In this document: positions 717 through 54,831 of the stretch, in pieces
How positions within the stretch are numbered: position 1 is the stretch's first letter
How the letters are laid out: each line of letters begins with the position of its first letter
Origin: Verpa conica
Lineage: Eukaryota > Ascomycota > Pezizomycetes > Pezizales > Morchellaceae
Assembly: GCA_033030425.1 (NCBI GenBank)
Contig: JAUFSD010000025.1
Location: 930,001 to 994,000 of the forward strand
DNA length: 64,000 bases
Reading direction: 5' to 3'
Notes under the pieces: generated by a model
What the model was told of the DNA's origin: nothing
The model's database searches: none
Seen by the model: only the letters and a program-made list of their open reading frames with translations
Made by a program: the position numbers and the translations under genes

Positions 717-2725
717 TGTGTGATTAGTGTGGTATAATACCTCCTATATAGTTATATCGCTAGCTTTTTCATTCCCTTGGTCTTGCTGTTATTACTCTTT
801 AACACTCATACTTACCGCACTAGTAGCTACGGGTATCCTAGGAGTTTTGTTTTTCTTTTGCTATTTTTCCAGCTTTATCAGGCGTATTTTAGGTTTCTTT
901 TTCATATTTCATAATTTTATTTCTTTCCCTCAAATTTCTCACCGTATATTTAATGGGTGTAGCGGAGTTCCGGCAATGGTGGAGTCTAGATTTATTTATA
1001 AGTTATTTGTGGGGGGCTGCATTGATTGTAGTAGTTATACGTGGTTATGATGATTTACATGTTGCTGGACAATAAATTGAGTTGGAATTAAAATGTCTGT
1101 CTTATGACATATGTAGTTTAGCTCAATAAGGTTACGAGGTCAACCCGTAACTCATAGAATGTCACTCATCCTTACCTGGTCTAATTTGTCGGAGATATCC
1201 TAATAGATATTGGGCCGTGCATTAGGTATTCCGTATACAGAGACTGTGAGGGTCCCTAGCGTCGATCAGTTTCCTTTAGTGTTATATCACCAACATTCCG
1301 ATTGGGCTAAGCAAATCATGCTCCTTAATGCGACGACAGCCTTCTTGTACCACCTAATAGGGAGTTTGGGTAATTACCGGTACGAATGGCACTTGCTGGC
1401 TCAATACGGTAAGCCGGAGCTGTGCAACCGGTACCGAGCTAGTGGGTTATAGCTACAGTTAGCCGTCTGCATCATGTTATATATGCTCTATTACCTTTTG
1501 GGCTTCCTAAGCTATTGGTCAGATCTTGCACGGGTATGATACAATTCTTGAAAAGTGTTAAGTTAGCCTGTAGCGCTGGCAGCCGCCAATGGCTATCCCA
1601 GAGGGAAATACATGGTGGGTGTTGAACGCCCCAGCATGCCCGTAGACACTCTTGGTGGGCTCGGTTGCTACGATTGAGGTTAGTGCGATGAACAGTCTTT
1701 AACGTTTAGGTGGCTGCTCTTAATGGGTCATCGTGTTTTTCTGGGCAAACTTTATTTCAACCTTTCCTCACTGCATTCCCAAGCTCTGCAAGCCCTGGAA
1801 CCACCAACCACAGACCACAAACTGCATTCCACAGCCGTAGTATCTCGGAAACGCCAACCATTCGATTCTTCTAGGGAATAAAAAACTACTGAACTAAAGA
1901 TATTTGTTGTATACCATCTTCTCACGGTGTCATCTGCTACTACTTCCTGTAAAATACGTTCAAACCCCTGTCCCAATTCGATATCCTTGATCTTTAGCTA
2001 GTGGCGCACCAATGTTTGTTGGAATGAGTGACACTCTGTGAAGTTAAGTGTGGCGAATACAGGGTGTGGCAACACCGGAGGAATAGAAGTCCGGATGGTC
2101 CGGCAGGGTAACCAGACGGAGGAATAGTATAACCGACGGAAGGAAATTCTACCCGAGTATCGGGAGAATGGTATGGTAACAAGTGGGTCTTTACTTTGTA
2201 TTGGGAATACGGGATGTTTTCTATGTTGGCACATTTGTAACTATATAAGCAGGCTTCTCCTGCGTCTTTCCTTAGGTATCAATCAAGTTTGTTCTTTAGT
2301 TATATCTATCTCTAGTATACACTGAGTCTATTGTTTTTTCAATGTTAGAGATCGAATACTTTGCTTATTTACTTATGATTAATTCATTCATTCATTCAGA
2401 CCGAATACTTAGGATAAGGCTCTCACCCCGCGGTTTCGCAACCGCTGATCTCTGGGGATGCCGAGGTTGGCTTGTTGCTCCGCCCCGTTGGTTGGACGAT
2501 CTACCAATCAGAGCACGAATACTCTTCGCTACCGGGCGTATGGGTCAAACAGCCAGGTCCAATACTTGAAGAGGACTGCAGACTATGGCATTGTATAAGC
2601 AGCCCCACATACGTAGTTGGCGCCTTGTTGGGTTTGTGATGTGGAGGAGCCGATGTACGAAAGACAACACACTCCCGACAAGCGCCGCGACACGATTATC
2701 CAACTTCATCAAAATATTGTGACCC
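717..2725. other. Intergenic region without recognisable gene
   Basis: About 2 kb between two ankyrin genes. Open frames are short and show no family motif. A small perfect hairpin (GCGGTT-TCGC-AACCGC family) lies near 2431-2446. I saw no tRNA, TIR pair or long coding frame here. The last few hundred bases presumably contain the promoter of the kinase-ankyrin gene, but no convincing TATA or CAAT element stands out. Confidence 0.5.
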
Positions 2726-5496
2726 ATGGCAGCAGATAATTCAGCCTCCGATACACTTCCGTTCAAGCTCGATGTAAGATTCTACGAGAACGGTGTCGTT
2801 GCGCAGAAAAGGACCGGAGCAAGCTGGTGGCAGGCGTGGGCTAGGTGGGAGTGGGTAAAGGATCTTGGCGCGGGAGGGTTTGGAGTTGTCTACCTAGAAA
2901 GAGAGGAGGGAACAAGGAACTTAAGAGCAGTCAAGAGGATGGATGCGAGTAAACTGAGACTACAAAATATAAATGTCAAACGGGAGCTACAAACTTTGAT
3001 AGCGATGAGAAATGTGAGGACTCAGCCTTACACCTCTGTGACTAGTAACTGAACATAGAGCACTAGCATGACTTATTCGTGGAGTTTCTTGGCTGGTACC
3101 AGGACCAGAATTTTATCTACCTTGCAATGGAATATATCGAGCACGGCGACCTGGAACAGTACCTCGTTAAGCTTGGGACGAAAGCAAAGACGAGTGCGCG
3201 GGAGATTACTCGGCAAGTACTGGAAGGACTTGTTGAGTTACATAGCAAAAAGATTTGCCATCGAGACCTAAAGCCCCAGGTTTGTCCTCCCAGCCCTGTC
3301 ATCCGGAATTGGCATCCTATACTGCTGGCTAGACTCTTCATGTCAAATGTATTGTCGGTAGGTATAACCAAAGTGAGACTTCTCAGTGTAATATCTAAGG
3401 AGTGTTTAAATGATATTATTTCTTAATTAGAGATAGTATTTACTTTGGGAAGTATCCTGGGTATCACTTAGCTATGCGCTTCGTCCGTATTTGACATGAA
3501 CGGTCTAGTTAAATATTTGGAGTTACTTGAAAGTATCTAATACTGAGTAATATGCTAAAAGAAACTGTAGAACATTCTTATAGCCTCTCTGTCACCACTT
3601 CGTATCAAGCTTGCCGATTTCGGAACATCAAAATTTATCGAGGGTACAATGTTGAGAACTCGATGGGGGACCACAGGCTACCAAGCGCCAGAGCTGTTAG
3701 GACTACTACGCAACCGGGGAACAAATTATTCCAATTCTGTGGATATTTGGGCGCTAGGGTGTCTTGTATTCAAGATTTTGACTCTTGAAACGCCTTTTAT
3801 GGAAAGTAGCCTTGACACAGGCACCTCCGACTTCGAGACAGGCATAGATTGCACATCCTTCGCCCCACAGACCGATATGAAACTCCTCCAGGAATATTGC
3901 TCCGGCACGGTGGATTTTCCGATTGAAGTTCTAAGCCCCCATGTGGGCGAATGGGGTGTAGATTTTGTTAAGAGATGCTTGAACCCTGACCCAGAGCTGA
4001 GGGTAACTCCAATGGATGCGCTAAACCATGAGTGGGTAATTGGTCTTGAGACCCTTCAAAGTCAATTTGTGTCCCTTGGGGTTTTTTTGAGCCCTGAAGA
4101 GATGAGAATGTTGATTCTGAAGCGCAAGGGTACCCCTGGCGCAGAGATCTCTATATCTATTCCACCTACAAAGATCTCAGATATTCGGAGGTTGGCAGTA
4201 CCAGCCGCATCCAGTGGATATGTATTGGCTACTGAAGTAATACTTGGGATTCTAGGCACTATATTTGGGGACAGCAAGCAAATGGTTGTGAAGATGCTCC
4301 AAGCAGCAGTGGGGGGTGGTCACCTCGAGACTGTGAGACTTCTCGTGGAGAAGGGTGCAGATATCAATGCTAAACCAGCATTTCAGTCAGGCCGAACAGC
4401 GCTGCAAGCAGCAGCAGGGGGTGGACACCTCGAGATCGTGAGACTCCTTGTGGAGAAGGGTGCAGATATCAATGCTGATCCAGCATTTCACTCAGGCCGA
4501 ACAGCGCTCCAAGCAGCAGCAGGAGGTGGAAACCTCGAGATCGTGAGACTCCTTGTAGAGAAGGGTGCAGATACCAATGCTGAGCCAGCGGTTTACTCAG
4601 GCCGAACAGCACTCGAAGCAGCTGCAGAGGGTGGACACCTCGAAGTCGTGAGACTTCTCGTGGAGAAAGGTGCATATATCAATGCATATTCCTCAAGCCA
4701 AACAGCGCTTCAAGCAGCAGCAGGGGGTGGACACCTCGAAGTCGTGAGACTCCTCGTGGAGAAGGGTGCAGATATCAATGCTAAACCAGCGGTTTCCTCA
4801 GACCGAACAGCGCTCCAAGCAGCTGCAGAGGGTGGACACTTCGAAGTCGTGAGATTTCTCGTGGAGAAGGGTGCAGATATCAATGCTAAACCAGCATATT
4901 CCTCAGGCCGAACAGCGCTCCAAGCAGCTGCAGAGGGTGGACACCTCGAAGTCGTGAGACTCCTCATAAAGAAGGGTGCACGTATCAATGCTAAACCAGC
5001 ATTTCACTCGGGCCGAACAGCGCTCCAAGCAGCTGCAGAGGGTGGACACCTCGAGATCGTGAGACTCCTTGTGGAGAAGGGTGCAGATATCAATGCTGAG
5101 CCAGCGGTTTCCTCAGGCCGAACAGCGCTCCAAGCAGCAGCAGAGGGTGGGCACCTCGAAGTCGTGAGACTTCTCGTGGAGAAAGGTGCATATATCAATG
5201 CATATTCCTCAAGCCAAACAGCGCTTCAAGCAGCAGCATGGAGTGGACGCCTCGAAGTCGTGAGACTCCTCGTGGAGAAGGGTGCAGATATCAATGCTGA
5301 GCCAGCGGTTTCCTCAGGCCGAACAGCGCTCCAAGCAGCAGTATGGCGGGGACACCTCGAGATCGTAAAGTTACTTTTGGAGGGTGGTGCTGATGTGAAT
5401 GTCAGGGATCAATTTGGTGGTACCGCGTTGCAAATAGCTATCTCCAAGGGTAAAAAGGAGATCCAGAAACTCCTATCTGATGCAGGAACTAAATAA
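2726..5496 (+). CDS. Protein kinase-ankyrin repeat fusion protein (3 exons)
   Basis: Exons 2726-3013, 3067-3279 and 3571-5496, both introns phase 0, give 808 residues. The start ATG sits in a good context (ACCCATGG). Residues about 43-324 form a eukaryotic Ser/Thr-type kinase with every core motif: glycine loop LGAGGFG (47-53), VAIK-type Lys70, HRD at 161-163 followed by LKPQN, DFG at 183-185 and APE at 206-208. It is therefore predicted active. A linker of about 80 residues follows, then about 12 ankyrin units (residues ~405-808) that are almost identical except for the last two. Units 4-5 and 9-10 share a variant ending AYINAYSSS that lacks three residues. The second intron is long (291 nt) for this locus. 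The kinase would presumably be steered to substrates by the ankyrin array; the pathway is unknown. Residue identity in the motifs makes the kinase call firm; the exact splice sites are inferred from reading frame and motif continuity. Confidence 0.88.
4290..5400 (+). repeat. Near-identical 105-bp tandem ankyrin-coding repeats with a five-unit higher-order period
   Basis: About eleven units of 105 bp (two of 96 bp) follow each other with very few differences. A block of more than 70 bp around 4652-4730 recurs identically around 5168-5246, exactly 516 bp (four 35-residue units plus one 32-residue unit) later. This is what unequal crossing-over of a five-unit block would leave. Confidence 0.85.
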
Positions 5497-13461: not shown

Positions 13462-13951
13462 ATGTCTAATGATCTAGAGCAATTCCATGACGGGCTACGT
13501 TTCAGGGCCGCTCTCAAAGCTATAGATAAGATTCATGCCATGGTTCAAGTTGCAGGGTTTACCAAAGATGTAATACAAACTACTTTCTTTTCAACTTGAG
13601 TTAAATCATACTAAAGCTTACATAAACTTCTAGGTTTTTGCCAATGTTGTGGTTCTCGAACAAGGGATTAATGAATCAGAAGTCTATCGTGCTGGAATTG
13701 GAATGAACGTAGTGGCTATATCGGAAAACCTCTGGGGGATAAAAAATAAAGACCGCTGGTATGATATCGTACCTAAAGAAACATTCCAGAGGGTACGAAA
13801 CATGAGAAATAATGTTAGTCACCATTACGGACACGCCGAAAAGATGGTCGATTGGCACGATCTGTGGGAGTATATTGCGAATGATCGCGATATTCTTATC
13901 CCACAGCTCAGAAGGGCTGTTGAACAGGCAGAAATCTCACTTAACGTATAA
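13462..13951 (+). CDS. HepT-like HEPN-domain protein (prokaryotic toxin family) with an intron
   Basis: Exons 13462-13569 and 13634-13951 (64-nt intron, phase 0, donor GTAATA, acceptor TCTAG) encode 141 residues, the usual size of HepT/DUF86 proteins. The helical layout matches that family: an N-terminal helix pair, a segment resembling the family's NLEIIGEAA region (AGIGMNVVAISENL, residues about 56-69), then RNNVSHHYG. This last segment contains the HEPN signature RX4HXY as Arg94, His99 and Tyr101. In bacteria this motif forms the RNase site, and its tyrosine is the residue modified by the MntA antitoxin. The downstream part (DLWEYIANDRDIL) also fits the family. The partner-type gene, a minimal nucleotidyltransferase, lies 4.9 kb downstream on the same strand. 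An intron and the absence of bacterial-type neighbours argue for a resident fungal gene rather than contamination. The family call rests on motif and layout; activity is inference. Confidence 0.72.
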
Positions 13952-15045
13952 CTAAGATGTTTGTCGAGGACGCGTCGTCATGGGGGTTGGGCTTTTTGTT
14001 TCTCTGTTTATTTCTTATTATTTCTTATTTTTACTATATTTTCAGAGATTGAGGCGCAGTTCTATACATAGCGTGGGATACTCTGCGCAGTCTTGTTTTT
14101 TTTTCTTTTGGGAGATCGACACCTTTGGATGTTTTTCAGGCCCTTGCAAGCTTGACATACATGCAACCTTTCAAGTCAATCATTGGGTTCTGGTTTAGGG
14201 GTGGCTTATCATGGGTTTCAGTTACTTCATTTTGTTTTCTTCCCTTATTTTAAAACTTGCATTATGAAGCAGTATACGTAAGCTTTTAATTCTATGTTCT
14301 TTGTGAAAGCACGGGCGCGAGGAACAGGGTGAATATTTGATAATATGCCTGGAGGAGGGAGGTAATCCCGACCTCATATAGATCGACCGTTATCGGCCAT
14401 ACTCAAACGGCTATTCTATTGACAGCTGTTGAAGCCCCCTCATGTAATCGTGGCGGGGTGTATGCCAGTATCTCTCCGCGTGCCTGTTACAAATGATAAC
14501 TAGTCGTAGAAGTCTTACACTAATATAACCAAAGTAAGGCACATCTCTATATAAGCCTAAGTAAGCGTATCTAATGAACCATTGATTAAGCATGAACCTT
14601 TACTTTTCATCATGATTTATGTTGATTCACAATTGCATTTACGCGATAACCACTGTACACCAGGAACCAATCGGAGTGAAGCCATTGTTCCAGCAAAACA
14701 CAACAAAACAATCATGAATAACTAGAATAAGATAGAGTTATCATTTCAGGGGTATTTCCCCATGCGATTTAAGTGTCGTGTAGGTGCATATGGTAGATGA
14801 GGTTCTAAATCAGATAGGGCTTGGTTCAAAATAGCGCCAGTTTACTAGCTAGAAACAGTCTGTATATGTCTATGTGATAATCGAAATCTTGAGCGACTAG
14901 ATCTCACTGGCCATAGTAATATGATTCGCAGTCAAAAATATTTCTAGAGTTAGCACCTGACCTTAATACATATTATCTTGGTTGTATGGACCGGAGTGAC
15001 AGCGGCTAGTCTGAGCTAGGGTTGAGACCTTAGTTACCACCTGAG

Positions 15046-15083
15046 TACTCGCGACAGGCAATATATACCCGGAAATGCAGGTC
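15046..15083 (+). repeat. Dispersed 38-bp repeat, copy 1
   Basis: Matches 17242-17279 at roughly 30 of 38 positions (TACTCGCGACAGGCAATA... against TACTCGTGGCAGGCAATA...), same orientation. Probably the remnant of a larger decayed element. Confidence 0.5.
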
Positions 15084-17241
15084 TCTGGTAGGGAATACAT
15101 ATTGGATGCGGAGACCTTTCTGTAGATATGAGCCGCCGTAAAAGGCTGGAGAATCGGGGGCTGTGGCAAAGACCGTTGACGGTACGTGGCCCAAGGGACC
15201 CCGCAACAGGCATTAAGAACCTGAACGTGCCGTTCTTATTTCCACCAATTAGTAAGGATGATTTACTCGCTAGAGGTATTGACTCCAATAGAAACCATTG
15301 TTGTGAATAATTGCATGTTCCGGTTTTTTATGCCTATCGCGGGTAGCTGCAGGATATTGCGTAAGAGGTCGATCTAGTAACATCAAGTATATAGGGATAT
15401 ACTCTATATATTACCTATCAGAAACACCCAAATTCATTGCTGAAATCTATGATAAGATCAAATACATAATGCTACCCTACAAAGGAGTCGGCCCTACATA
15501 GTAGGTGAAGTGGGGTATAGTTCAAGCCTACAAACTCCCGTTCTAACCAATGTTAGGTCATGTGAGCCTTGTTCTCGTACATAAATGGTTACATTTGAAA
15601 ATTGGCTTCCAACGCACTATATCACAAGACGGTTTTACACTCTTTTTCTCCTATCAAAGTCCGATCGCTTTGTAGGATTGACGTCGGGACTATCTTCGTC
15701 TAAAATTTTACTTACATCATACTAGTCCTCAAACCAGTGAGGCCTCGTGATATGGAAAAAAGAAACCGGTTATACATATGCAACTTGCTTTTTCGGGTCT
15801 CTGCTTTTTATTTTTACTTTTAGTATCTAGGATGCGCGGCAACCGATCACAAGTACTAATTTAAATAATATAACCCGTCACTCTAGCAAAAATACTTCGA
15901 CGCTTTAATTACGCACGTAGTTTCACACGGATATTATATATACCCTAGCATTCGAATCTAGCTATGTAGCTACTCTTTGATTTCAATTAACTGTTCTACT
16001 GGGAAAAATTAATATTTTCTATTTACGGTCAATCTCTCTCATAACAGAAATATATAAGTGTGACTAGATACACTGCTAGGTCGTATACATGTAGTACATA
16101 GATACATATATTTGTAATACCTCGCTCAATTGGGGGTCACTTTTAAATTACTTGATTGATAAATCAAATTAAACCCCCATGAAATGCCTAGACCTAGCTA
16201 GTCGTTGCCCACTGATTTATATCACAAAATGGCCTTACTAGTACAGTACAGCTATTATATGATTTCTATTTTATAGCGCGGGGGAGCACTAAAAACGCGC
16301 AAGGCTGTATGTGCACGTACGGATGCAACTGATTAATTAAATACACACCACATAAACACTCGAATTGCAAACAGGTAGTAATAATCACTAGAATTCTTGG
16401 GCCCTTAAGACTGGTTGGCTATATATCATAGGAAACTCTCAATTTTAATAATTATACAACCTTAATCGCTCCCCGGTGCGTATGTAAGTCGGGTACATCC
16501 TAAGATAATATAAGAAGCACGTAACTATTCTGCAGATATGCATAATAATGAGTGCAACTTGCCAAGAAATACCCCTAAATTAAATTTCTTTTATCACACT
16601 GCCTGATATAAAATTCCCTCGCTATAATACAGTGTTCTTATTTGGTGCTGCTTATTGGCTCTCGGGTGCTCCGAGCCTTGAGCGGAGCGGAAATCGAGTG
16701 AAAGTAAGGCGAACGACACGAACCCAATTTTATACTACCAAACTCAAGTCTTAGATATCTTCGTACTATATTAAGGCTGATGTTAAGACTACCTCTGTTA
16801 GTTCTCATATCGCTGCCTTGAAGTCATGCTTCATAGGGGGGTAAACCGCTTCTAGCCTGACATCGGTTGCCATACAGCTGCCTAGACACGCCTCCGCACC
16901 AAACCCCGAGCCAACAGATTATTCATGTTACCTTGCGCTTTAGACAAGTAGATACCCTTCTAAGTAGATATAGACCACTATACTCAGGCAAGAAGAATCT
17001 AAACATGCAAGCTGCAAGCAGGGGCTTAGTATGCAAAATTTCCACACCAGTGCATATCAGAACTAGTCTTTGCCACAGAATCTCATATCCACATTCTCCT
17101 TGCCTGGGTGAGTGCTAGATAGGCTTCGCCAAAGGATAACGATCAAACAGTATCTGGATATCTACCTCGGCCTGCAAATTTACTTCTCCGTTAGAAAATG
17201 TGTCTTCGAAACAGTGGCATGCGCTGTGTCTTTTAACTGTT

Positions 17242-17279
17242 TACTCGTGGCAGGCAATAAATACCTGGAAATACAGGTG
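17242..17279 (+). repeat. Dispersed 38-bp repeat, copy 2
   Basis: Second copy of the repeat at 15046-15083, in the same orientation, 2.2 kb downstream within the same gene-free gap. Confidence 0.5.
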
Positions 17280-18854
17280 AGTACTCTAACAAAGGGACAG
17301 ATATGCTTTGCACAGAAATGCTTTGCACAGAAAGGCCCCTGTACTTAATAGAACCTATAAATTTCCGAGTACTTATTTCTTGTCGCGAGCACTAGCTACT
17401 CATAAGATGTAATACACCTTATAGGACCTCGATTACATATACTCCAAGGACAGCTATTCGCTAGATTTCGCCCTGCAGGGGGGTAAACCAACACACTGAA
17501 TTCTGAAATTAGCTAATAGCACAGAATAAAAAGTGGTCTTGCAGGGGGAAAAATAACACTCCCTATTACGGTATCTCGGAAACTCTTGCTATGAAACCTA
17601 TAAAGCTCAGCGGTATCCGGTCCATGCTTGATTCCAACCCGCCTACAGCTCCCGGTAGAAATTTGCCGCCAGGAAAAAGCCTTTTGTTGGACTTCTTGGT
17701 TATCGGCGAGGGCCTACCAGTGCTCACCAGGTATATGTACTTTCTCGGTAGGGGTCAGCTCCAACCAAATTCCCTGCTCCAAAAGCTGCTACCGCCACAT
17801 AGGCGCTAGAGATATGCAACCATGCATGCATACCAACGGGAGTATAAGATGAAATACAGGGTCCTGCAAGGTGTTTAGCCTACACATCGAAAGACCTGCC
17901 TGAAAAAAAAGGTAGTTGAGTTCTGTTAGGATACCGTATATTCTATACCTTTTTGTAAAAACTAGAAACCGTTAAGCAGAACCGCGAGTGACCACAAGTG
18001 AATGTAGTGACATGTACGCTTAATTGGGGTGGCAATAATGCTAAATATATTCCTAAGACCAGTTGCTATCGCCACCGGTATAGGTGTAGGCAATCGAAGC
18101 GATCCTGTGTACCGTTCTTGGCCTTGCAGGCAATATTTATTAGGAAGCATATGAAATTATGTCATATTTACCCTTCTGTCATTCTTTAGGTAGATGTGGC
18201 TCTATGAGTCACAAAATAACCTTTTATTGTGTTTTCCACTCGTAGGGAGGTATCTGAATTCACAGTTAGTAGTTTAGAAGGACTGAGATTGTTGACCCGA
18301 AATAGCCTTTCTTAGCCTATTTTAATTAGAACAAAGCAACATTTAAACCCACCCAAAAACCCGACATGAAGATTTCGCCATAATATACGTAACCAGCGGA
18401 AGCTCTCGGCATTACGAGATTGGCTCATCAAACTCCTAAGTAATCAGTGGCTGTAACCAAAATCTGTCTTAGGAAATTCCTTTTTCCGGCTACTATAGCT
18501 ACATATGCAGAGTATAATATGTATGTAGGTACGCTACTCTAGCCGTCAAGCGTCTCCGGAATCCGGTGATGGGGAGCGCCATGTCTTTTCTACGAGGTCA
18601 CTTTATAGACTCGTGTAATCATGCTAATCTATCCCCGGTAGGAAAAAGATTGCTGTTCGTGATGTAAAATGTGATAATGGTGGGGGTCTCGAAGTATCGC
18701 TCGCAATCAATCAACTTCTAGTTGGTTGGATAGGATAACCGATAACGCCCCTATGCTAAGGAAATTATATAGTGCTCTCTGTCAATGCCAAAATCTGTAA
18801 ACCTGGCTTTACATCTAAGCCCACACCACCAGCTCAACAACCTTGTTATTCCTA

Positions 18855-19817
18855 ATGAACAAGATTTACACCAATCGAAGTCAGAACATTAAAGACCTTA
18901 AGATTTCCTCTGAGGAGGCTTTATCTAGGCCTGAATTCAGCAATATCCTTTGGATTGGAGTTTTCGGTTCCTTTGCTCGGAATGAACAAACAGACAAGAG
19001 CGACGTTGATATTATAGTGGTCGAAAAATCTGACGTTGAAGATGTGGACCTACCGTTGGGTTTTTGGACGCTCGAAGATTTGCTCCCACGAGTGTGGTGT
19101 AGGCCCATTGATGTTATCAGGATCCTCAAGCGCGAGCTACGCGGTTGGATCTCTGTACACGCGCTGCTGACTTCTCGCACTCTTTATGGAGACGCCCAAA
19201 GTGAAGAGGTTCTGCAGCTGCGTCTAAAGGCTAAAGAATATCTTGATTATGGTCGGAGGACCTTTGAAGAGGTGGATAAGAAGATTAGAGCGCTGAAAAC
19301 GAAGGCAGACAATATTGGAGCTCAGGTATGTCGCATGTCTTCGCCCTCCAGTTTCTCAATAAAATAAACTGATTTTTCGGGATGTTCTCCCTTTCAGAAG
19401 TTTAAAGACTCTCGATCGGATCAGGAGTCGATTCGAGAGGATCTCTTCGAACTCTTGACGTGCTTTGAGATTGAGCCCGTTTGGCACCCGATCCACGAAG
19501 GCTTTTGGTCAACTATCATCCAGGCATCGGTTGAAATCAAACGAATCGTCACCGTAGAGAACGAAAATCCCGAACGCATATGGGATATTGTCGCAAACCC
19601 CTCACCCAAAAGCATCCATAACCTTGCGGTAAGGTTGAAAAAATTCGTATTCCCGAGCTTCGAGGAAATTGAAAAACGTATAGACCTTGCAAAAAGGCTG
19701 GAAGAGCGTATAGTCCTTGCGGCAGAAACAGGCGACGATATAGGAGGGCCTCCAGTGATGGTGGAGAAGCCTTCTGGGGGGGCAGTCGCCAAGAGGATCA
19801 GATGTATCATAACATAG
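18855..19817 (+). CDS. MntA-like minimal nucleotidyltransferase with C-terminal helical domain (2 exons)
   Basis: Exons 18855-19325 and 19398-19817 (72-nt intron with GTATGT donor, CTGAT branch and TTTCAG acceptor, phase 0) encode 296 residues. The N-terminal domain carries the exact MNT signature GSX10DXD: Gly38-Ser39, then Asp50 and Asp52 in GVFGSFARNEQTDKSDVDII. A third acidic residue, Asp86 in RPIDVI, occupies the position of the remaining metal ligand in the DNA polymerase beta fold. In bacterial HepT-MntA systems this enzyme transfers AMP groups from ATP to the tyrosine of the HEPN toxin's RX4HXY motif. The MNT domain fills about residues 25-115. The remaining ~180 residues are charged and helical, unlike the short bacterial MntA, and could be a substrate-binding or HEPN-like domain; I cannot assign it. 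The upstream in-frame TTG is not a likely eukaryotic start, so the ATG at 18855 was chosen. A HepT-like gene lies upstream on the same strand. Confidence 0.78.
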
Positions 19818-26720: not shown

Positions 26721-27444
26721 TCAAAACTCATCCTCATCCTCATCCATCCCCATACTAGTCCCACCTCTATACCTCCCGCCCTCCTCCGCCTCCTCCTCCT
26801 CCAAATGTCTCTTGACCTCCTCTCTCGAGGCCCCAATCTTCCTCAGGTTATCCACCACACCCTTCGCAAAGCCCCTCAACTCCGTAATCTCCAACAGCCC
26901 CAGGTTATTCATCTGGAGATAAGTGCTCTCCAACTGCCTTAGGCCCTCTCTGGCCTTAGTCTGCCTCACCTCCCTCAGACCCCTCAGCAGGACGCGGAGC
27001 TCCTGGCAGCCGCCGGTATCCCCGGACGAGAGGTCGTCTGGACATGCGTCGAGGAGCATCTCTGCGGTCTCTAGCCATCTGAAGGGCAGGTCGGGCGAGA
27101 ACCTAGCGTCTTCGGTCTCGGACTTGAGGACGGCTTCAAGGTGGGGGACGGTCAGCCATGCGGGGGGTATGATGTTGCATCTGCGTTGTCGTTTGAGTAG
27201 CAGGGCGAGCCATAGTGGGATTGTGGCCCGTTGGGGAGGGTGGAAGGGTGGGAGGGAGCCCTGAGGTGTGTGTATTTGTGTTAGTAAGGGGGGTTTCTAC
27301 CTGGGAGAGGGGATGTACGGCAATGAGGTCGAGACGGTCTAGGCGCTGGCGGGGAATAACGGTGATAGATTGGGACTCGCAGAGGAAGGCGACTTCGGAG
27401 GGTGTCAGTGGGCCGGTGCCAGGGAGGGGGGCGGTGTTTGCCAT
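26721..27444 (-). CDS. PSF2: GINS complex subunit Psf2 (2 exons)
   Basis: Exon 1 is 27444-27301 and exon 2 is 27260-26721; a 40-nt intron with branch TTACTAAC and a CTCAG acceptor separates them in phase 0. The 227-residue product opens with LTPSEVAFLCESQSITVIPR and, after the intron, has RATIPLWLALLLKRQRRCNI, the two hallmark segments of Psf2. A helical middle and an acidic C-terminus (DEDEDEF) follow. Psf2 is one of four GINS subunits that, with Cdc45 and MCM2-7, form the CMG replicative helicase in the nucleus. Length and motif order agree with fungal orthologues. The gene is transcribed divergently from ALG10 (about 660 bp between start codons), so they share an upstream region. Confidence 0.95.
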
Positions 27445-28102: not shown

Positions 28103-29961
28103 ATGCACCCTCTTGTTCCGCGCCTCGCAGTTCTCGCCGCCGTGACGGCTACCGTGAGTAGACTCATTAACAAGATAGTCCCAGAGCCCTACTTGGTATG
28201 TGTGTTGTGACAATTGTCTTCTCCCCCCCCTCACATATACTAACTTCGACACAGGATGAAGTTTTTCATATCCCCCAAGCGCAATCCTACTGTCTTGGGG
28301 ATTTTAAATACTGGGACCCTAAACTAACTACTCCTGCCGGGCTCTACCTGCTCTCCTACCCCCTTTCCCTACTCTCACCATGCACACCTGCTCTCCTCCG
28401 ATCGCTCAATGCCGTCGGCGTGGCAGTAGTCCTTCCGGTGATTGTCTACAACATCTTGCTCCTCCTTCACCCGAGTGAGCGACACCTCCCCGCAACAAGA
28501 TCAGCGGCCGCGCACACCGCGGTCAACGTGGCATTATTCCCGCTGTTGTTCTTTTTTGCAGGACTGTACTACACGGATGTGTACTCGACGGTGTTTGTCC
28601 TCGCGAGTTACATGTTCTGGCTGCAAGGCCGAACATGGCTGAGTGCTGGCGCGAGCTGGGTTGGGCTATGGTTCCGACAGACGAACGTGCTGTGGGCTGT
28701 GTTCTTACTGGCGTTGGAAGGGGTTAGGTCTCTAGAGGTATCGCAAGGCCCCGAAAAGGAGGTTGTGGAAGAGATTGCGGAGAAGGAGGTCGTGAAGGAG
28801 ATTACGCCGGTTGTATCTCCTATCGCGTCTCCGGGAGGAAAGAGGAAGAAGCGAAAGGGCAGAGCTACAGTCCCTCCACCTACACCCCCGGTTCTGAGTC
28901 GGGTTAATTCTAGACTTCAGGAAGAGGAAGTGCAGGAGGAGGTGCAAGACGGACCTTGGACAATCGATGTGAAATCAACCCAAGCACCCGGCAGCGAACT
29001 AACCAAAGCCTGGAACCGCGTCGTTGAAACCGCGCTCGGAATCCGAATCTGGAACCCAGTATTCAGCGACGAAGTCACCTCTCAAGACATACTATTCTCC
29101 ACACCGACGAGCATCCTCCTCGCAGCACTCCAGCACACACCCACCCTCCTCCTCCACACCCTCCCATACCTCCTCGTCCTCACCTCCTTCGCACTCTTCA
29201 TCCTCTGGAACGACCTCTCAATCGTCCTCGGCGACAAATCCGCCCACCAACCGACACTACACATCCCCCAACTCTACTACTTCACCCTCTTCACCGTCCT
29301 CACTTCATGGCCAATACTCCTCTCTCACACCTTCCTAACGCGGCTCTGGGCGGCTACTGTATCCGTCTACATCCGTCTCCCCCGCCGCCGCCGCAAGTCT
29401 CGAAAGCTCCCACCAGCCTTCGTCACCGCTGCCACCGCCGCCGCCGCCAACCCTCCCCCGGTATCAATCTCACTCCCCACCCTCCTCCGCACGGTATTCA
29501 CCCTCCTACTCATCCTATCAACCATCCACACAAACACCTACCTCCACCCGTACCTTCTCGCCGATAACCGCCATTTTGTGTTTTATGTCTTCCGCCGCAG
29601 TATCCTACTACACCCGGCGGTGCGGTACCTTCTTGCGCCGGTGTACTTGGCCGCGGCGTGGAGTGTCTATGAAGGCCTGAGAGCCGCGGGCGTTGTTTCT
29701 GTGGTCTGGGTCTGGGCGTGGACGGTGGCGGTTGTTGGAACACTGGTCGGCGCCGGCCTGGTTGAAGGCAGGTATTTTGTCGTGGGGTGGGTTCTGTGGA
29801 GACTTCATGTGGAGAGATTAGGCGATGATGGGTGCAGGTGGAGGAGAGTATTGGAGACACTAGGGTTTGTGGTTGTTGATGCAGCTGTGTTGTATGTGTT
29901 TTTGTCATGGGGTTTTGAGTGGGAGAGTGAGAAGGGGAAGATCCAGAGGTTCATGTGGTAA
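28103..29961 (+). CDS. ALG10: Dol-P-Glc:Glc2Man9GlcNAc2-PP-Dol alpha-1,2-glucosyltransferase (Alg10/Die2)
   Basis: Exons 28103-28195 and 28255-29961 (59-nt intron with ATACTAAC branch, phase 0) give 599 residues. The splice reconstitutes the family signature VPEPYLDEVFHIPQAQ, followed by FKYWDPKLTTPAGLY, the luminal catalytic loop after the first membrane helix. Alg10 adds the last glucose to the lipid-linked oligosaccharide in the ER lumen, using dolichyl-phosphate glucose, before N-glycan transfer. Multiple hydrophobic segments are visible, as expected for a polytopic ER enzyme, including a WFRQTNVLW motif. A charged, Glu/Lys-rich cytosolic insert with GGKRKKRKG (roughly residues 210-265) breaks the membrane part and is variable among fungi. 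Length is at the upper end for the family because of this insert. Confidence 0.95.
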
Positions 29962-38731: not shown

Positions 38732-38744
38732 GGTTATGAGCCCG
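38732..38744 (+). promoter_or_regulatory. Primer-binding site complementary to the anticodon arm of initiator tRNA-Met
   Basis: GGTTATGAGCCCG directly follows the 5' LTR. It is complementary to the CGGGCTCATAACC segment in the anticodon stem-loop of eukaryotic initiator tRNA-Met, not to a tRNA 3' end. This points to the half-tRNA priming known from Drosophila copia. Confidence 0.8.
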
Positions 38745-38811
38745 GGTTCTGCACAATAAACTCCGCTATTCTTTACCTTCTCTCACAAACACATACACCC
38801 AATATCAAACC

Positions 38812-41800
38812 ATGTCTTCAGGAGCAGCTTCTACAAGCAAGTCCGGTGATGAAACTGTAGTCCAACCTACGAGCACTGCCATCCCAAATCCTATGGGAAA
38901 TCTCATGGTCAAGACAGATAGACTTCCCGTTCTTACTGGACAGTCAAACTATCAGACCTGGGCAGGAGCCTGGAAGATTACTTTTGATTCAGTTGAATGG
39001 TGGGAAAATGTGAGTGGCGAGAAAAAAGAACCAACCGACAAAGCCTCCGAAGAACATCTGCTTTGGAAAACTGTCTCCAAGCGAGCTCTTGCACTTCTAC
39101 TCAACGGTGTATCAGAAGAACTACAAACCACAGTCGTTGCCGCCGGCAGCGCACACGGTGCCTGGAAAGCCCTTAAAGACCTTTTTGATAGGGAAACTCC
39201 AGCAACAACGATCAATATCCTCACAACGCTCCTGAACCTACGTTACCAGGACAATACCTCTCTTGCAGACCACCTAACCACCTTCCAAAATCAATGGAAT
39301 AGGTTTCAGCAACGATGCCAGGACACAACAAAAGAAGGACTATCCAAAGATTTCCACTCCGTCGCAAATTCCAACCGAGCCAAAGCAGCCTTGCTGCTTG
39401 TTTCTCTAAACTCTGCCACCTCAATGGAAAACATCATCGACAATCTCCAAACCAAGGAGAATCTTTCCTATGAAGACGTCTACAATAGACTCACCGATCT
39501 ATCCGCCAACAAAACCGGCACCTCCGAAAATACCGTCTTCAACACCAGCCACAACACAAAGAAACACTGTACCTACTGTCTGGCAAAAACAGGAAAGAAA
39601 TTCACAAATCACACCCACGATGACTGCAGAAGGCTAAAAAAGGAAAAAGAATGGAAAAAGAAAGGAGGAAAAGGAAAAGGAAAGGAGGATAACGCCTCCA
39701 CTAGCACACATAACTCGGCAACCGTCTTAATGGTACGCCATAACTCCTCGCCCTCCTCATCTTGGATATTCGACTCTGGCGCAACTGCTCACATCTCTCC
39801 CCATAAAGAACTCTTCACCACGGTTCGACCTTACGACGGAATCGTTAGAACAGCTGATGGGACCGCTCACCGAGCTCCAGGAATTGGAGATATCCTCATC
39901 GAGTGTTGGCTCCCTGACGGAGGAAGATCTTCAGTCGTTCTCACTGATGTACTCCTCGTCCCCACGTTCGGACCAGTTGGTCTCATCTCCGAGACCGTTC
40001 TTGACAAAAAGGGGTGCAGAGTTGATGCAGGAGGAGGAAATAAAATCGTTAAAAAGGGCAAAAAGGAATTACTCTGGGGAAAATTGGTAAACGGGCACTG
40101 GAATGTACAAATAGTTGAAAATGTAGCACGTCTCTCTTCTTACTCTGAATGGCATGAAGCACTCGGACATCCATCCAGTCTTCATAGCCTATATGCCGAC
40201 CGTACAAATCTCCCAAAGAAACCAAGTAACTTCCACTGCGGACCATGCGCCCTTTCAAAAAGCACTCATTCGGTCCCAAAGACAATAAGTACTCGAGCCA
40301 CACAACCCTTCGAACTAGTCCATTCAGATCTCTCTGGTAAACAAAGAGTAATGTCTCAGGACAAATGCCAGTACTACATGTCTTTCATAGACGACTACAC
40401 TCGCTATTCTTGGATTTATTTCCTAAAGAATAAAGACGATGCGTGTAAAGCCATCGAACACTTCACCAATAAAATCAAAAATCAGCATAACACCACAATA
40501 AAAAGGTTCAGAGCTGATGGTGGAGGCGAATACGTCAACAAAAACACCAAGACCTTCTTCGGAAAAGAGGGCATTATTCAAGAGACAACGCCACCATACT
40601 CCCATGAATCAAATGGGGTAGCCGAAAGATTCAACAGGACGGTAACCACAATGGTTCGATGCATGATAATGGACCATCCCAAAATCCTATGGCAAGAAGC
40701 GTACTCAACTGCTGTCTATCTCAAAAATAGACTCCTACACAGTGCTCTAAAGGATAAAACCCCATACGAAGCACTCCATGGAAAGAAACCATCAATCAAA
40801 CATGCTCACCCTTTCGGTCAAAAATGCTACATTCATATTCATAAGGAAGCCAGGCCAGCCGGAAGCAAATTAGAACCAAGAGCAGTCGAAGGAAAATTTG
40901 TTGGATACACAGACAGCGACACACAATACCGAGTTTGGATACCATCTCAACACAAGGTGGTAGTCTCCAGAGATATCACGTTCCCCCCTCCAGCTTCAGG
41001 GGAAGTATCGATTGACATCTCCTACCCCTTAATAGAAACTCCAAAACTCGAAGCGTCAGTACCAGAGTCATCTCCCAAAGGAAAAGAAGCAGTTCCTTTA
41101 GAAGACGAAGGGGAAGAAAAAGAATTTATACTTCCGCTACCAGACTCTGATGAAGAACCAGAATCAGAAACACACACACCAGGAGATTTCCCATTATCTC
41201 CACCAAAAAAGGAAACAATTGCACCAATTCCACCTCCATTCCAAACACCCAGACGGTCAACGAGAGAAAAGAAACCAGTCGAAAAAACAACTCAAATTGA
41301 ACAGGAACAAAGGGACACAGAAATACGCAGAATACAAGCCAGAATTGAGAAACTAGACAGAGATCTGAAAGATGATCTCCTAGTTATCGAGCAAAACGAA
41401 GATCCCCGAGATCACCAACGTTTAAAAGACGATTCCTTAAAAGAACATAGAACTCAAAGGAATGACCTTAGGAGACAACTTCGACAAGCCAGAGCAAACA
41501 CTGCAACTGACACTCCGGTTCACTATGCCTACGTCAGCACCGATCCAGTTACCTTTCGACAAGCCACCTCAGGGGAAGATACGGAACTTTGGAATAAAGC
41601 AATGAAGGAAGAATACGACGCACTCATTAAAAACAACACATGGGATATAGTAGAACGACCTCAAAATCGAGAAGTCGTGAAAGGAAGATGGGTATACAAA
41701 ACAAAATACAACCGAGACGGAACCATTGAACGATACAAGGCCAGATACGTCGCCAAAGGATATTCACAAATACCAGGTCTCGATTTCGATGAAACATTCT

Positions 41801-43059
41801 CACCAGTTGCCCGTTATGACTCTCTACGACTCCTACTAGCCCTTGCTGCCCATAACAACTGGATTCCCATTCAGTTAGACGTCAAAACTGCCTTCCTCCA
41901 CGGTGTCCTCAAGGAAGAGATTTATCTTGAACTTCCTGAAGGATACAAACAAGACAACAAAGTGTGTAAACTTCGCAAATGCATCTACGGATTGAAACAG
42001 TCCCCTCGAGAGTGGTATGCCTGCCTGGTCGACTCTCTCAAACTGAAAGGATTCAAGGCATCCTACTTCGATCCATGTGTGTTCATTAACTCCACAGAGC
42101 ACATCTACCTTGCCGTCTATGTCGACGACATTATGATATTTGGACCCAGCAACAAGTATCGTCAAAACATTAAACAGTCTCTCATGACAGATTTCGAATG
42201 CACAGACCTCGGGGAATCCAAATACATCCTGGGATTAGAAATTGACTGCACCTCAGATGGCATACACCTTTCTCAAAAAGGCTACATACAAAAACTCCTC
42301 GAAAAGTTCCAAATGCATGAATCTAGACCAGTTGGCACGCCACTTGAACCCAACACTCTACTCACAACAGGAACAACCGAGTCCATGATAGATAATCAAA
42401 AACTCTATCAATCCATAATCGGATCCCTTATGTATGCTAGTATCGGCACTAGACCCGATATCTCTCACACAGTCACCTTCCTCTCCCAGTTTTCCTCCTG
42501 TCCTACGGCAGAACATTTAATTGCTGCCAAACGAGTTCTCAGATATCTCAAAGGCACAAAAGACTGGACACTGTTCTACTCCAAACACTCCGACAACACA
42601 TTACATGGGTTTTCAGATAGCTCATTCGGTTCCAATGTCTCTGATCGAAAATCCTTCTCTGGATACGTCTTTCAACTTGGAAACTCAACTATTAGTTGGA
42701 GAAGTCGCAAACAAAGAGCAGTTGCTACGTCAACCACCGAAGCGGAATACATGGCTCTCAACCTAACCGCGAAGCAACTTGTATGGTTAAAATCCGGCCT
42801 AACAGAACTTGGTCAATTCTACAACTATACAATACACACTGACAACACTGGCTCCATTGAGCTGGTTCGAAATCCACGAATCCATGATAGATCCAAACAT
42901 ATCGATATTCAATACCACTCTACCCGTGAATGGTACGAATCAGGAATATTCACTCTAGAATATGTTTCCACCTCTGACAATATCGCCGACATTCTCACAA
43001 AAGGTCTACCAAAACCAGCACACCTTCAACATGCCATTTCAATACGAGGTAACAAATGA
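38812..43059 (+). CDS. Copia-type Gag-Pol polyprotein (1415 aa, intact)
   Basis: One frame from ATG 38812 to TGA 43057-43059. Domains in order: a UBN2-type Gag (about residues 30-240); a Cys/His stretch CTYCLAKTGKKFTNHTHDDC and a basic Gly/Lys tail; aspartic protease with DSGA at 321-324; integrase with an N-terminal zinc-binding part (HEALGHP, CGPC) and catalytic Asp506, Asp569 and Glu605 (35 residues between the last two); a proline/glutamate-rich linker with a coiled-coil-like segment; reverse transcriptase with YVDD at 1103-1106; RNase H with DSS and TEAEYMAL segments. All catalytic residues looked for are present and there is no frameshift between gag and pol. Such single-frame elements must make extra Gag by another route, such as splicing or proteolysis. 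Confidence 0.97.
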   Translation: MSSGAASTSKSGDETVVQPTSTAIPNPMGNLMVKTDRLPVLTGQSNYQTWAGAWKITFDSVEWWENVSGEKKEPTDKASEEHLLWKTVSKRALALLLNGVSEELQTTVVAAGSAHGAWKALKDLFDRETPATTINILTTLLNLRYQDNTSLADHLTTFQNQWNRFQQRCQDTTKEGLSKDFHSVANSNRAKAALLLVSLNSATSMENIIDNLQTKENLSYEDVYNRLTDLSANKTGTSENTVFNTSHNTKKHCTYCLAKTGKKFTNHTHDDCRRLKKEKEWKKKGGKGKGKEDNASTSTHNSATVLMVRHNSSPSSSWIFDSGATAHISPHKELFTTVRPYDGIVRTADGTAHRAPGIGDILIECWLPDGGRSSVVLTDVLLVPTFGPVGLISETVLDKKGCRVDAGGGNKIVKKGKKELLWGKLVNGHWNVQIVENVARLSSYSEWHEALGHPSSLHSLYADRTNLPKKPSNFHCGPCALSKSTHSVPKTISTRATQPFELVHSDLSGKQRVMSQDKCQYYMSFIDDYTRYSWIYFLKNKDDACKAIEHFTNKIKNQHNTTIKRFRADGGGEYVNKNTKTFFGKEGIIQETTPPYSHESNGVAERFNRTVTTMVRCMIMDHPKILWQEAYSTAVYLKNRLLHSALKDKTPYEALHGKKPSIKHAHPFGQKCYIHIHKEARPAGSKLEPRAVEGKFVGYTDSDTQYRVWIPSQHKVVVSRDITFPPPASGEVSIDISYPLIETPKLEASVPESSPKGKEAVPLEDEGEEKEFILPLPDSDEEPESETHTPGDFPLSPPKKETIAPIPPPFQTPRRSTREKKPVEKTTQIEQEQRDTEIRRIQARIEKLDRDLKDDLLVIEQNEDPRDHQRLKDDSLKEHRTQRNDLRRQLRQARANTATDTPVHYAYVSTDPVTFRQATSGEDTELWNKAMKEEYDALIKNNTWDIVERPQNREVVKGRWVYKTKYNRDGTIERYKARYVAKGYSQIPGLDFDETFSPVARYDSLRLLLALAAHNNWIPIQLDVKTAFLHGVLKEEIYLELPEGYKQDNKVCKLRKCIYGLKQSPREWYACLVDSLKLKGFKASYFDPCVFINSTEHIYLAVYVDDIMIFGPSNKYRQNIKQSLMTDFECTDLGESKYILGLEIDCTSDGIHLSQKGYIQKLLEKFQMHESRPVGTPLEPNTLLTTGTTESMIDNQKLYQSIIGSLMYASIGTRPDISHTVTFLSQFSSCPTAEHLIAAKRVLRYLKGTKDWTLFYSKHSDNTLHGFSDSSFGSNVSDRKSFSGYVFQLGNSTISWRSRKQRAVATSTTEAEYMALNLTAKQLVWLKSGLTELGQFYNYTIHTDNTGSIELVRNPRIHDRSKHIDIQYHSTREWYESGIFTLEYVSTSDNIADILTKGLPKPAHLQHAISIRGNK

Positions 43060-52522: not shown

Positions 52523-54831
52523 CTATAATGGGTTGGTACCTTCCTGGAGTATTAAACGGGCCACCTCTTCATGGCCATTATTTGTGGCTATAGTTGCACA
52601 CCACCTCTTCTGTGATTGATCCACACATCTTCCAAGTAGAACAGAGACTGCCGCTTCATGGCCATTCTTTGCCGCCTGTTCTAGCGCTCTTCCCACCGTA
52701 AATAGATCTGACCGGTGGGTAAATGTCTGGAGTATTAAAAGTACCACAGCTTCGTGACCATTTTTTGCCCCTTCTACTAGCGCCTCCTCCACCTGCAATG
52801 AATCTGATCGGTGGATATATCTCTGGAGTATTAAACGTACAACAGCGTCGTGGCCATTCTTTGCCGCCTCTACTAGCGCCCCCCTCACCAACCACACCTC
52901 CAATAAACCTAACCGGTGGGTAAATCCCTGGAGTATTAAACGGACCACAGCTTCGTGGCCATTATTTGCCGCCCCTACTAGCGCCTCCTCCATCCACGAT
53001 AACTGGCGGGTAAATCTCTGGAGTATTGAACGTATCACAGCGTCGTGACCATTCTTTACTGCTCCTACTAGCGCCTCCTCCACCCACGATAACTGGTGGG
53101 TAGATTTCTGGAGTATTGAAAGTACCACAGCTTCGTGGCCATTCTTTGCCGCCCCTACTAGCGCCTCCTCCATCCGCGATAACTGGTAGGTATATTTCTG
53201 GAGTATTAAAGATGTCGACGCTTCATGGCAATTCTTTTCTAGTGCTACTGTCATATCCCAGCTTAATACGTCGGCCTCTCTCGCAGGTAGTACCATATCT
53301 ACCAATTCAGAATCAACTGAATAGCCGACACCTCCCCCTGGTGGTAAACTGGCTAATACTCCACTGGAATTTCCTGGCGCCCGGTGCGCCATACGGTCAT
53401 GGTTCTGCTGTGTGTGACAATTCTCGTAGTGATTTATCATCTCGGATGTTGTGTGAAAACGGTCGCCGCAGCAATCAGCTTCGAATTCGCGCTGAACCCC
53501 TGGGCAGTATGGTGAGGGGACAGAGGATGGTGTTTTGAAGGGGGACATCCCAGACATTACAACACTACACGCAGAGAGTTAAGAAATGGTCTATAGAAAA
53601 AGTTATAGAAGCGTTTTACTCACTCATTTCGTATCCAGCTCCCAATTGGACTTTTGGCTGATCCCAAGCCTATCCAGAAATCACCTGCTGGGCTGAATCC
53701 TCCCACATCATCGCTGCTGCGAATCTTGATAGGTTCATCCGGCCGCTCCGAAAAGCCAAAAGTCACATGCGAAATCCCTATCTTTGCTTTTAGAATTACC
53801 CCCACCGGAGGAAGATGAGGATAAAGAGGTGAGTCCCTAATCTTGCTGTCTCCTAGTCGGATAGGTCCCAGATGTGATTCAGTATTATTGATTGCCACAT
53901 CTCTTCCACTCTGAGAAGCTGTTTCCTCTATACTTCCCGTATCTCCAACGCTTCGGGGAATAGTTTCACTGGCATCTCTTATACCGCCGGTGCTAGGGTA
54001 CATGGCGGAATTCTCTGCATCTAATGCGGTAACTAAGGTTGAATTCCGTTAGACTTCCAGCTTCATGGGGGGGGGGGTAAATTCCAATAAACATACTTGC
54101 TGGGGAATCGGGCTCTTGGATATCCATCATCGTACCTTCACTCTCCTGGGAAACAGCTTCACCAGTACCTTCCACGTCATCATTAATTCTTGAAACAGTC
54201 CTCTCAATACTTTCCGTGTCGCCAGAGTTAGAGCCCGGTGTAAAGTACTCCACACCCGATGGTGTAACTAGGATCAAATTCTGTTAACATAAATTTTATT
54301 TGAGTAGAACGTTTTGTAAGCATACCTACTGAGCCACTGGGCTCTCTACTTGTGGCACCTACCCCATTAATAGGGGCGCGGTTTTCATCTTCAAATCTTT
54401 TGCGCGAGCGCTCTAGTTTATCTCCCCTTACTAGACGCCCTTTATAGTTGAATGTTGTCGGTTTCCCATTGATCTCCCTGTTTCGTTGAATCCCTAGCAG
54501 TGCTAATGCCGTTTTCTTGTTGAGATCCTTTCTGAGTTCCCAAGCTTTAATCTTTTTTTTGTACTGCGCTTCACTAAGTTTTACAATCAAGTTAGTTTAA
54601 AAGAAACAATCCATAGGCCGATAATTCTTCTTACTTTGCATAGAAGTTGTGTTCTTCTGCCATGATCTTCCTAACTTTTGAAAGGCTATGGCTGTCGTTG
54701 AGATAGAGTTCGGTAATTTTGTGACGTTGTTTCTCCCATTCATTCGATTTGAGCACTCGGGCCTTGAAGTTTACTTCCCAATTCTGCTGAGGAGGAGGTA
54801 GGAGGTGGGTAGTTTGCTGATGTTGATCCAT
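52523..54831 (-). CDS. Clr5-domain protein with degenerate ankyrin repeats (5 exons, 688 aa)
   Basis: Exons on the minus strand: 54831-54635, 54573-54326, 54267-54097, 54032-53624 and 53564-52523; four introns of 58-64 nt, all phase-consistent. The first splice creates the Clr5 domain (residues ~30-85): EWEKQRHKITELYLNDSHSL followed by VRKIMAEEHNFYA and QYKKKIKAWELRK. A low-complexity middle follows. Residues 373-392 form a C2H2-like CCGDRFHTTSEMINHYENCH. The C-terminal ~240 residues hold seven or eight repeats of about 33 residues (EEALVGAAKNGHEAVV.LILQ), best read as divergent ankyrin units. Clr5 is a fungal domain named from a silencing factor and is often joined to ankyrin or TPR repeats; the molecular role is unclear. 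Exons 3 and 4 start with similar intron-exon junctions, suggesting an internal duplication. Intron 3 contains an 11-base C/G homopolymer (54067-54077). Confidence 0.82.

Follow-up and report, generated by a model that had tools for sequence, protein, structure and literature searches.

A spliced HepT-type HEPN gene beside an MntA-type nucleotidyltransferase gene in the fungus Verpa conica, a putative pair

In the type VII toxin-antitoxin (TA) module HepT/MntA, as described for Shewanella oneidensis, MntA modifies Tyr104, the tyrosine of the RX4HXY motif, with three adenosine monophosphates (AMPs), and the GSX10DXD motif is essential (PMC7641770). In the 2013 HEPN survey, the DUF86/PF01934 family is entered for Bacteria and Archaea only (PMC3710099), and titles and abstract starts in the open-access literature yielded no fungal HepT/MntA. 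Here we describe a HEPN gene followed on the same strand, 4.9 kb downstream, by a minimal nucleotidyltransferase (MNT) gene in the fungus Verpa conica. The two genes lie in a stretch of 64,000 nucleotides (contig JAUFSD010000025.1, positions 930,001 to 994,000 of the forward strand), hereafter the window. Both parts are real and unexpected, while their partnership is putative and unproven.

The HEPN gene consists of two plus-strand exons (13462..13569, residues 1-36; 13634..13951, residues 37-141 and the stop codon), separated by a 64-nt GT..AG intron in phase 0 (13570..13633) with a TACTAA-like branch site ahead of the AG. We compared the spliced product of 141 aa to a profile built from 44 prokaryotic HepT-like (HEPN) neighbours of MNT genes. 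It scored 28.1 bits, end to end and across the splice junction, compared to 23.8 bits for exon 2 alone; homology includes exon 1, the alignment starting at residue 10. The match is collinear and keeps R, H and Y, with the motif RNNVSHHY (13805..13828, plus strand; Arg94, His99 and Tyr101) aligned to the RNxxxHxY of prokaryotic HepT. Aligning the product with the prokaryotic HepT-like profile by hhalign gave 95.2%. The score of 28.1 bits was not reached by any of 2000 and 1986 scored motif-preserving shuffles (maxima 22.9 and 23.6, respectively). Exon 2 also ranked first among 1926 open reading frames (ORFs) of at least 50 aa, taken from 264 kb of the V. conica genome (the window plus 20 sampled stretches of 10 kb), in which the next best score was 6.2 bits. 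The initial annotation had expected PF01934 and PF01909 matches for the two products. PF01934 stayed below its threshold on the HEPN product (17.5 bits against a cut-off of 23.5, E 0.0034), but the HepT-neighbour profile bears out the assignment of the 141-aa product to HEPN/HepT. On this evidence the product is very probably a HepT-type HEPN protein, and its predicted sequence retains both the RNase motif and the acceptor tyrosine intact.

Motif expectations were taken from 60 first-order Markov sequences and are given as counts per window. By itself, RX4HXY lacks significance (3 ORFs of at least 60 aa, with 1.6 expected), and the narrower RNX3HXY is rare by chance (1 ORF, with 0.03 expected). 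Codon usage gives a weak signal: the spliced HEPN frame is the best of the six, yet it is outscored by 2 of 45 ORFs that appear to be non-coding, and exon 1 taken alone has no codon-usage signal. In a Legionella protein, RX4HXY reportedly is an unlikely candidate for the catalytic site (PMC11586414); conservation of the motif is therefore no proof of how, or whether, RNA is cut.

The MNT gene also has two plus-strand exons (18855..19325, residues 1-157; 19398..19817, residues 158-296 and the stop codon) and a phase-0 intron (19326..19397; 72 nt, GTATGT..CAG). An MntA-like domain spans approximately residues 12-131, and exon 2 encodes a C-terminal helical extension. The spliced product of 296 aa carries the GSX10DXD motif GSFARNEQTDKSDVD (18966..19010, plus strand; Gly38-Ser39, Asp50 and Asp52) and a third acid, Asp86 (19110..19112, plus strand). 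GSX10DXD is rare by chance, with 1 ORF in the window and 0.05 expected. PF18765 (31.4 bits) and PF01909 (30.1 bits) both match above their cut-offs, and the best NCBIfam match is MntA_antitoxin (NF047752), with lower scores for the aminoglycoside nucleotidyltransferase (ANT) models. The structure model, built with a 28-row alignment, has an overall predicted local distance difference test score (pLDDT) of 85.9 and is confident at approximately residues 11-180 and 191-270. It places a bundle of long helices after the MntA-like domain, and its leading Foldseek matches are aminoglycoside nucleotidyltransferases together with MntA/MNT chains (7bxo, 7ae9). The predicted product is thus a nucleotidyltransferase of MntA type that retains its catalytic residues and carries a helical bundle at its C terminus; at 296 aa, this extra domain included, it exceeds the minimal MntA size (~80-150 aa) and is about twice as long as the bacterial proteins.

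The MNT protein has relatives in other fungi. Named homologues in the protein database number four, all from Morchella, at 45-50% identity. They are of two kinds, with Gln (P0001 and P0004) or Glu (P0002 and P0003) at the equivalent of Asp86; Glu also occupies this position in three fragments of unnamed source (P0005-P0007). The Morchella snyderi paralogues P0001 and P0003, which differ in this way (Gln and Glu), share one value for the longest contig (260221) and so probably lie on one contig. A search with an MNT-domain profile added 21 longer proteins (P0008-P0028, E<=7e-7), and GSX10DXD is intact in 26 of the 29 fungal-type rows. Exactly where exon 1 of the window gene ends in GTATGT, Val is found in 16 of the 21 longer proteins and in all of P0005-P0007, with Ala in 3 of the 21 and 2 of the 21 unaligned; these residues were judged by eye, in translations that continue into the intron. 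This suggests that the phase-0 intron is common to the fungal-type family, whose members would hence be spliced eukaryotic genes, and any transfer from bacteria would therefore be old. A quick tree of 102 columns was built from the 29 fungal-type rows and 33 of 96 listed shorter matches (P0029-P0124). The fungal-type rows and one short fragment fall on one side of a branch with an approximate likelihood ratio support (SH-aLRT) of 98, and the window protein stands beside the Morchella group (SH-aLRT 99); many forks are unresolved. Together with the apparently common intron, the tree makes the MNT gene unlike a recent arrival from bacteria. The four named Morchella members are annotated as hypothetical or uncharacterized, and the fungal family looks uncharacterised.

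The HEPN and MNT genes are nearest neighbours. We searched the V. conica genome (45.8 Mb, 25 contigs) and found one clear MNT gene and one intact HEPN gene; given one copy of each, simple arithmetic puts the chance of their lying within 5 kb at approximately 2 in 10,000. A HEPN-like copy at C1:3207993-3208196 (E 0.002, 25% identity) is interrupted by an in-frame TAA and has Tyr where the motif calls for His; it is apparently a decayed paralogue, and no MNT match was found near it. At C17:619094-619198, within a 417-aa open frame, PF18765 (Pol-beta nucleotidyltransferase) scores 20.4 bits, below its cut-off. The initial annotation described two same-strand genes with phase-0 introns and nothing recognisable between them; all of its exon bounds and named residues hold, and the 4.9-kb spacer (13952..18854) has no recognisable gene and no stop-to-stop ORF of at least 100 aa wholly inside it. 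The spacer does carry short dispersed repeats resembling miniature inverted-repeat transposable elements (MITE-like), at approximately 14301-14380, 15045-15124, 15202-15348, 16985-17107, 17242-17393 and 18522-18604. Those at 15045-15124 and 17242-17393 are copies of a palindromic MITE-like family of ~150 bases found at several genome sites.

The likeliest reading, though a little short of an even chance, is that the pair is a domesticated eukaryotic derivative of a prokaryotic HepT/MntA (type VII) module with a role in RNase control. Introns in both genes support domestication in a eukaryote, as had been proposed. We would give nearly even weight to the two proteins forming a functional AMPylation pair. 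By comparison with S. oneidensis, the MNT protein would transfer AMP onto Tyr101 of the HEPN protein, and AMPylated Tyr101 would be the off-state of a general RNase. Loss or inhibition of MNT would then free the RNase to cut cellular RNA, as a switch in stress, defence or incompatibility. We infer these steps beyond the family assignments themselves. It is more doubtful that the genes make up a working eukaryotic type VII-like pair, in which a HepT RNase silenced through tyrosine AMPylation by an enlarged MntA would act as a switch in conflict or cell death, or alternatively as a selfish toxin-antidote.

Several observations weigh against a domesticated HepT/MntA-derived pair. The nearest HepT gene lies 3' of the MNT gene in all 50 informative prokaryotic loci (80 examined), the reverse of the order seen here. 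In these loci the first Met of HepT is located between -82 and +102 bases relative to the MNT end, with overlap of the MNT frame in 46 of 50, so the reversed order and the 4.9-kb gap set the V. conica genes apart from the adjacent or overlapping one-operon arrangement that defines a HepT/MntA module. The initial annotation saw the exact signatures of a TA module; both motifs are indeed there, while the order, the spacing, the length of the MNT protein and the HEPN database search depart from that description. In this search, no HEPN homologue was found at E<=1 among 5.8 billion proteins, which is weak evidence because the search requires shared 5-residue words. It likewise gave no HEPN partner for the Morchella MNTs, even though these are annotated. 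The single HEPN copy is itself unproven, since the own-genome searches are insensitive, PF01934 and a bacterial HepT both having missed even the window gene. MntA_antitoxin scores 30.7 bits on the MNT protein, about half its cut-off of 60, and for the HEPN structure model Foldseek ranks helical proteins of no relation at the top (OspC, E 0.11).

These observations can be read in other ways. Possibly, if rather doubtfully, both genes are real but are not partners: the MNT would be an old fungal nucleotidyltransferase that acts, through a C-terminal bundle as in kanamycin nucleotidyltransferase (KNTase)-like architecture, on another protein, a small molecule or a nucleic acid, and the HEPN gene would be nearby by coincidence. 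This is consistent with the helical bundle and the aminoglycoside nucleotidyltransferases as best Foldseek matches, with Gln or Glu as third acid in the Morchella paralogues, with an MNT family that occurs in Morchella and among fungal-type sequences whose source is unnamed, no HEPN having been detected there, and with a gene order and spacing unlike those of prokaryotes. However, no other intact match to either gene was found in 45.8 Mb, the two are nearest neighbours, and the HEPN protein retains the acceptor tyrosine besides the RNase residues.

Alternatively, the HEPN ORF could be a decaying HepT-derived relic, no longer made or active, next to a functional MNT. The C1 copy with its in-frame stop and altered His, the lack of a further HEPN homologue in the protein database and the weak codon-usage signal would fit, but in the window gene the spliced frame is intact, the motif residues are kept and homology runs end to end over the splice junction, and we consider this unlikely. 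Still less probable is a selfish toxin-antidote element, a killer of spores or incompatible nuclei with HEPN as poison and MNT as antidote. TA ancestry with intact motifs, the short repeats that scar the spacer and the decayed HEPN-like copy elsewhere would suit such an element, whereas the old, conserved MNT family equally suits a housekeeping or regulatory role.

Elsewhere in the window, at 2723-5496, a protein kinase domain precedes a long ankyrin array of near-alike repeats, the whole being spread across several frames (apparent introns). A second ankyrin-repeat ORF, of 351 aa, is on the minus strand at 52526-53578. A Copia-type polyprotein (gag, integrase, reverse transcriptase) at 38740-43059 (plus) is open for 1439 codons stop to stop, and two housekeeping genes encode a DIE2/ALG10 glucosyltransferase (28171-29961, plus) and the GINS subunit PSF2 (26721-27296, minus). 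The polyprotein, these two genes, the introns and the Morchella origin of the closest named MNT proteins all point to a fungal, probably pezizomycete, genome.

If HepT/MntA descent is true, eukaryotes too would have a HEPN RNase controlled by AMPylation, in the form of a spliced fungal HepT next to an MntA-like enzyme, and fungal biology would gain a directly testable RNA-cleaving switch. Both TA-type proteins are present in a fungus, and it would be surprising if they still worked together. The closest described system is the S. oneidensis module SO_3166/SO_3165 (PMC7641770), which likewise has an RX4HXY HEPN and a GSX10DXD MNT in neighbouring, profile-matched genes. In contrast, the putative V. 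conica pair is eukaryotic and spliced, and has HEPN first with a 4.9-kb separation and an MNT of 296 aa rather than ~80-150 aa. The HEPN-M (PF08780) and DUF86 (PF01934) row in Table 1 of the HEPN survey (PMC3710099) shares the collinear profile match and the conserved R, H and Y, but it is given there for Bacteria and Archaea only, whereas the V. conica member is fungal and falls under the Pfam cut-off. Aminoglycoside and kanamycin nucleotidyltransferases (ANT(4'), 6un8, 1kny) resemble the MNT protein in having a Pol-beta domain and then a helical domain (6un8 matches in Foldseek at E 4e-4), but overall superposition is poor (root-mean-square deviation 13.8) and the MNT sequence scores higher with the MntA model than with the ANT models.
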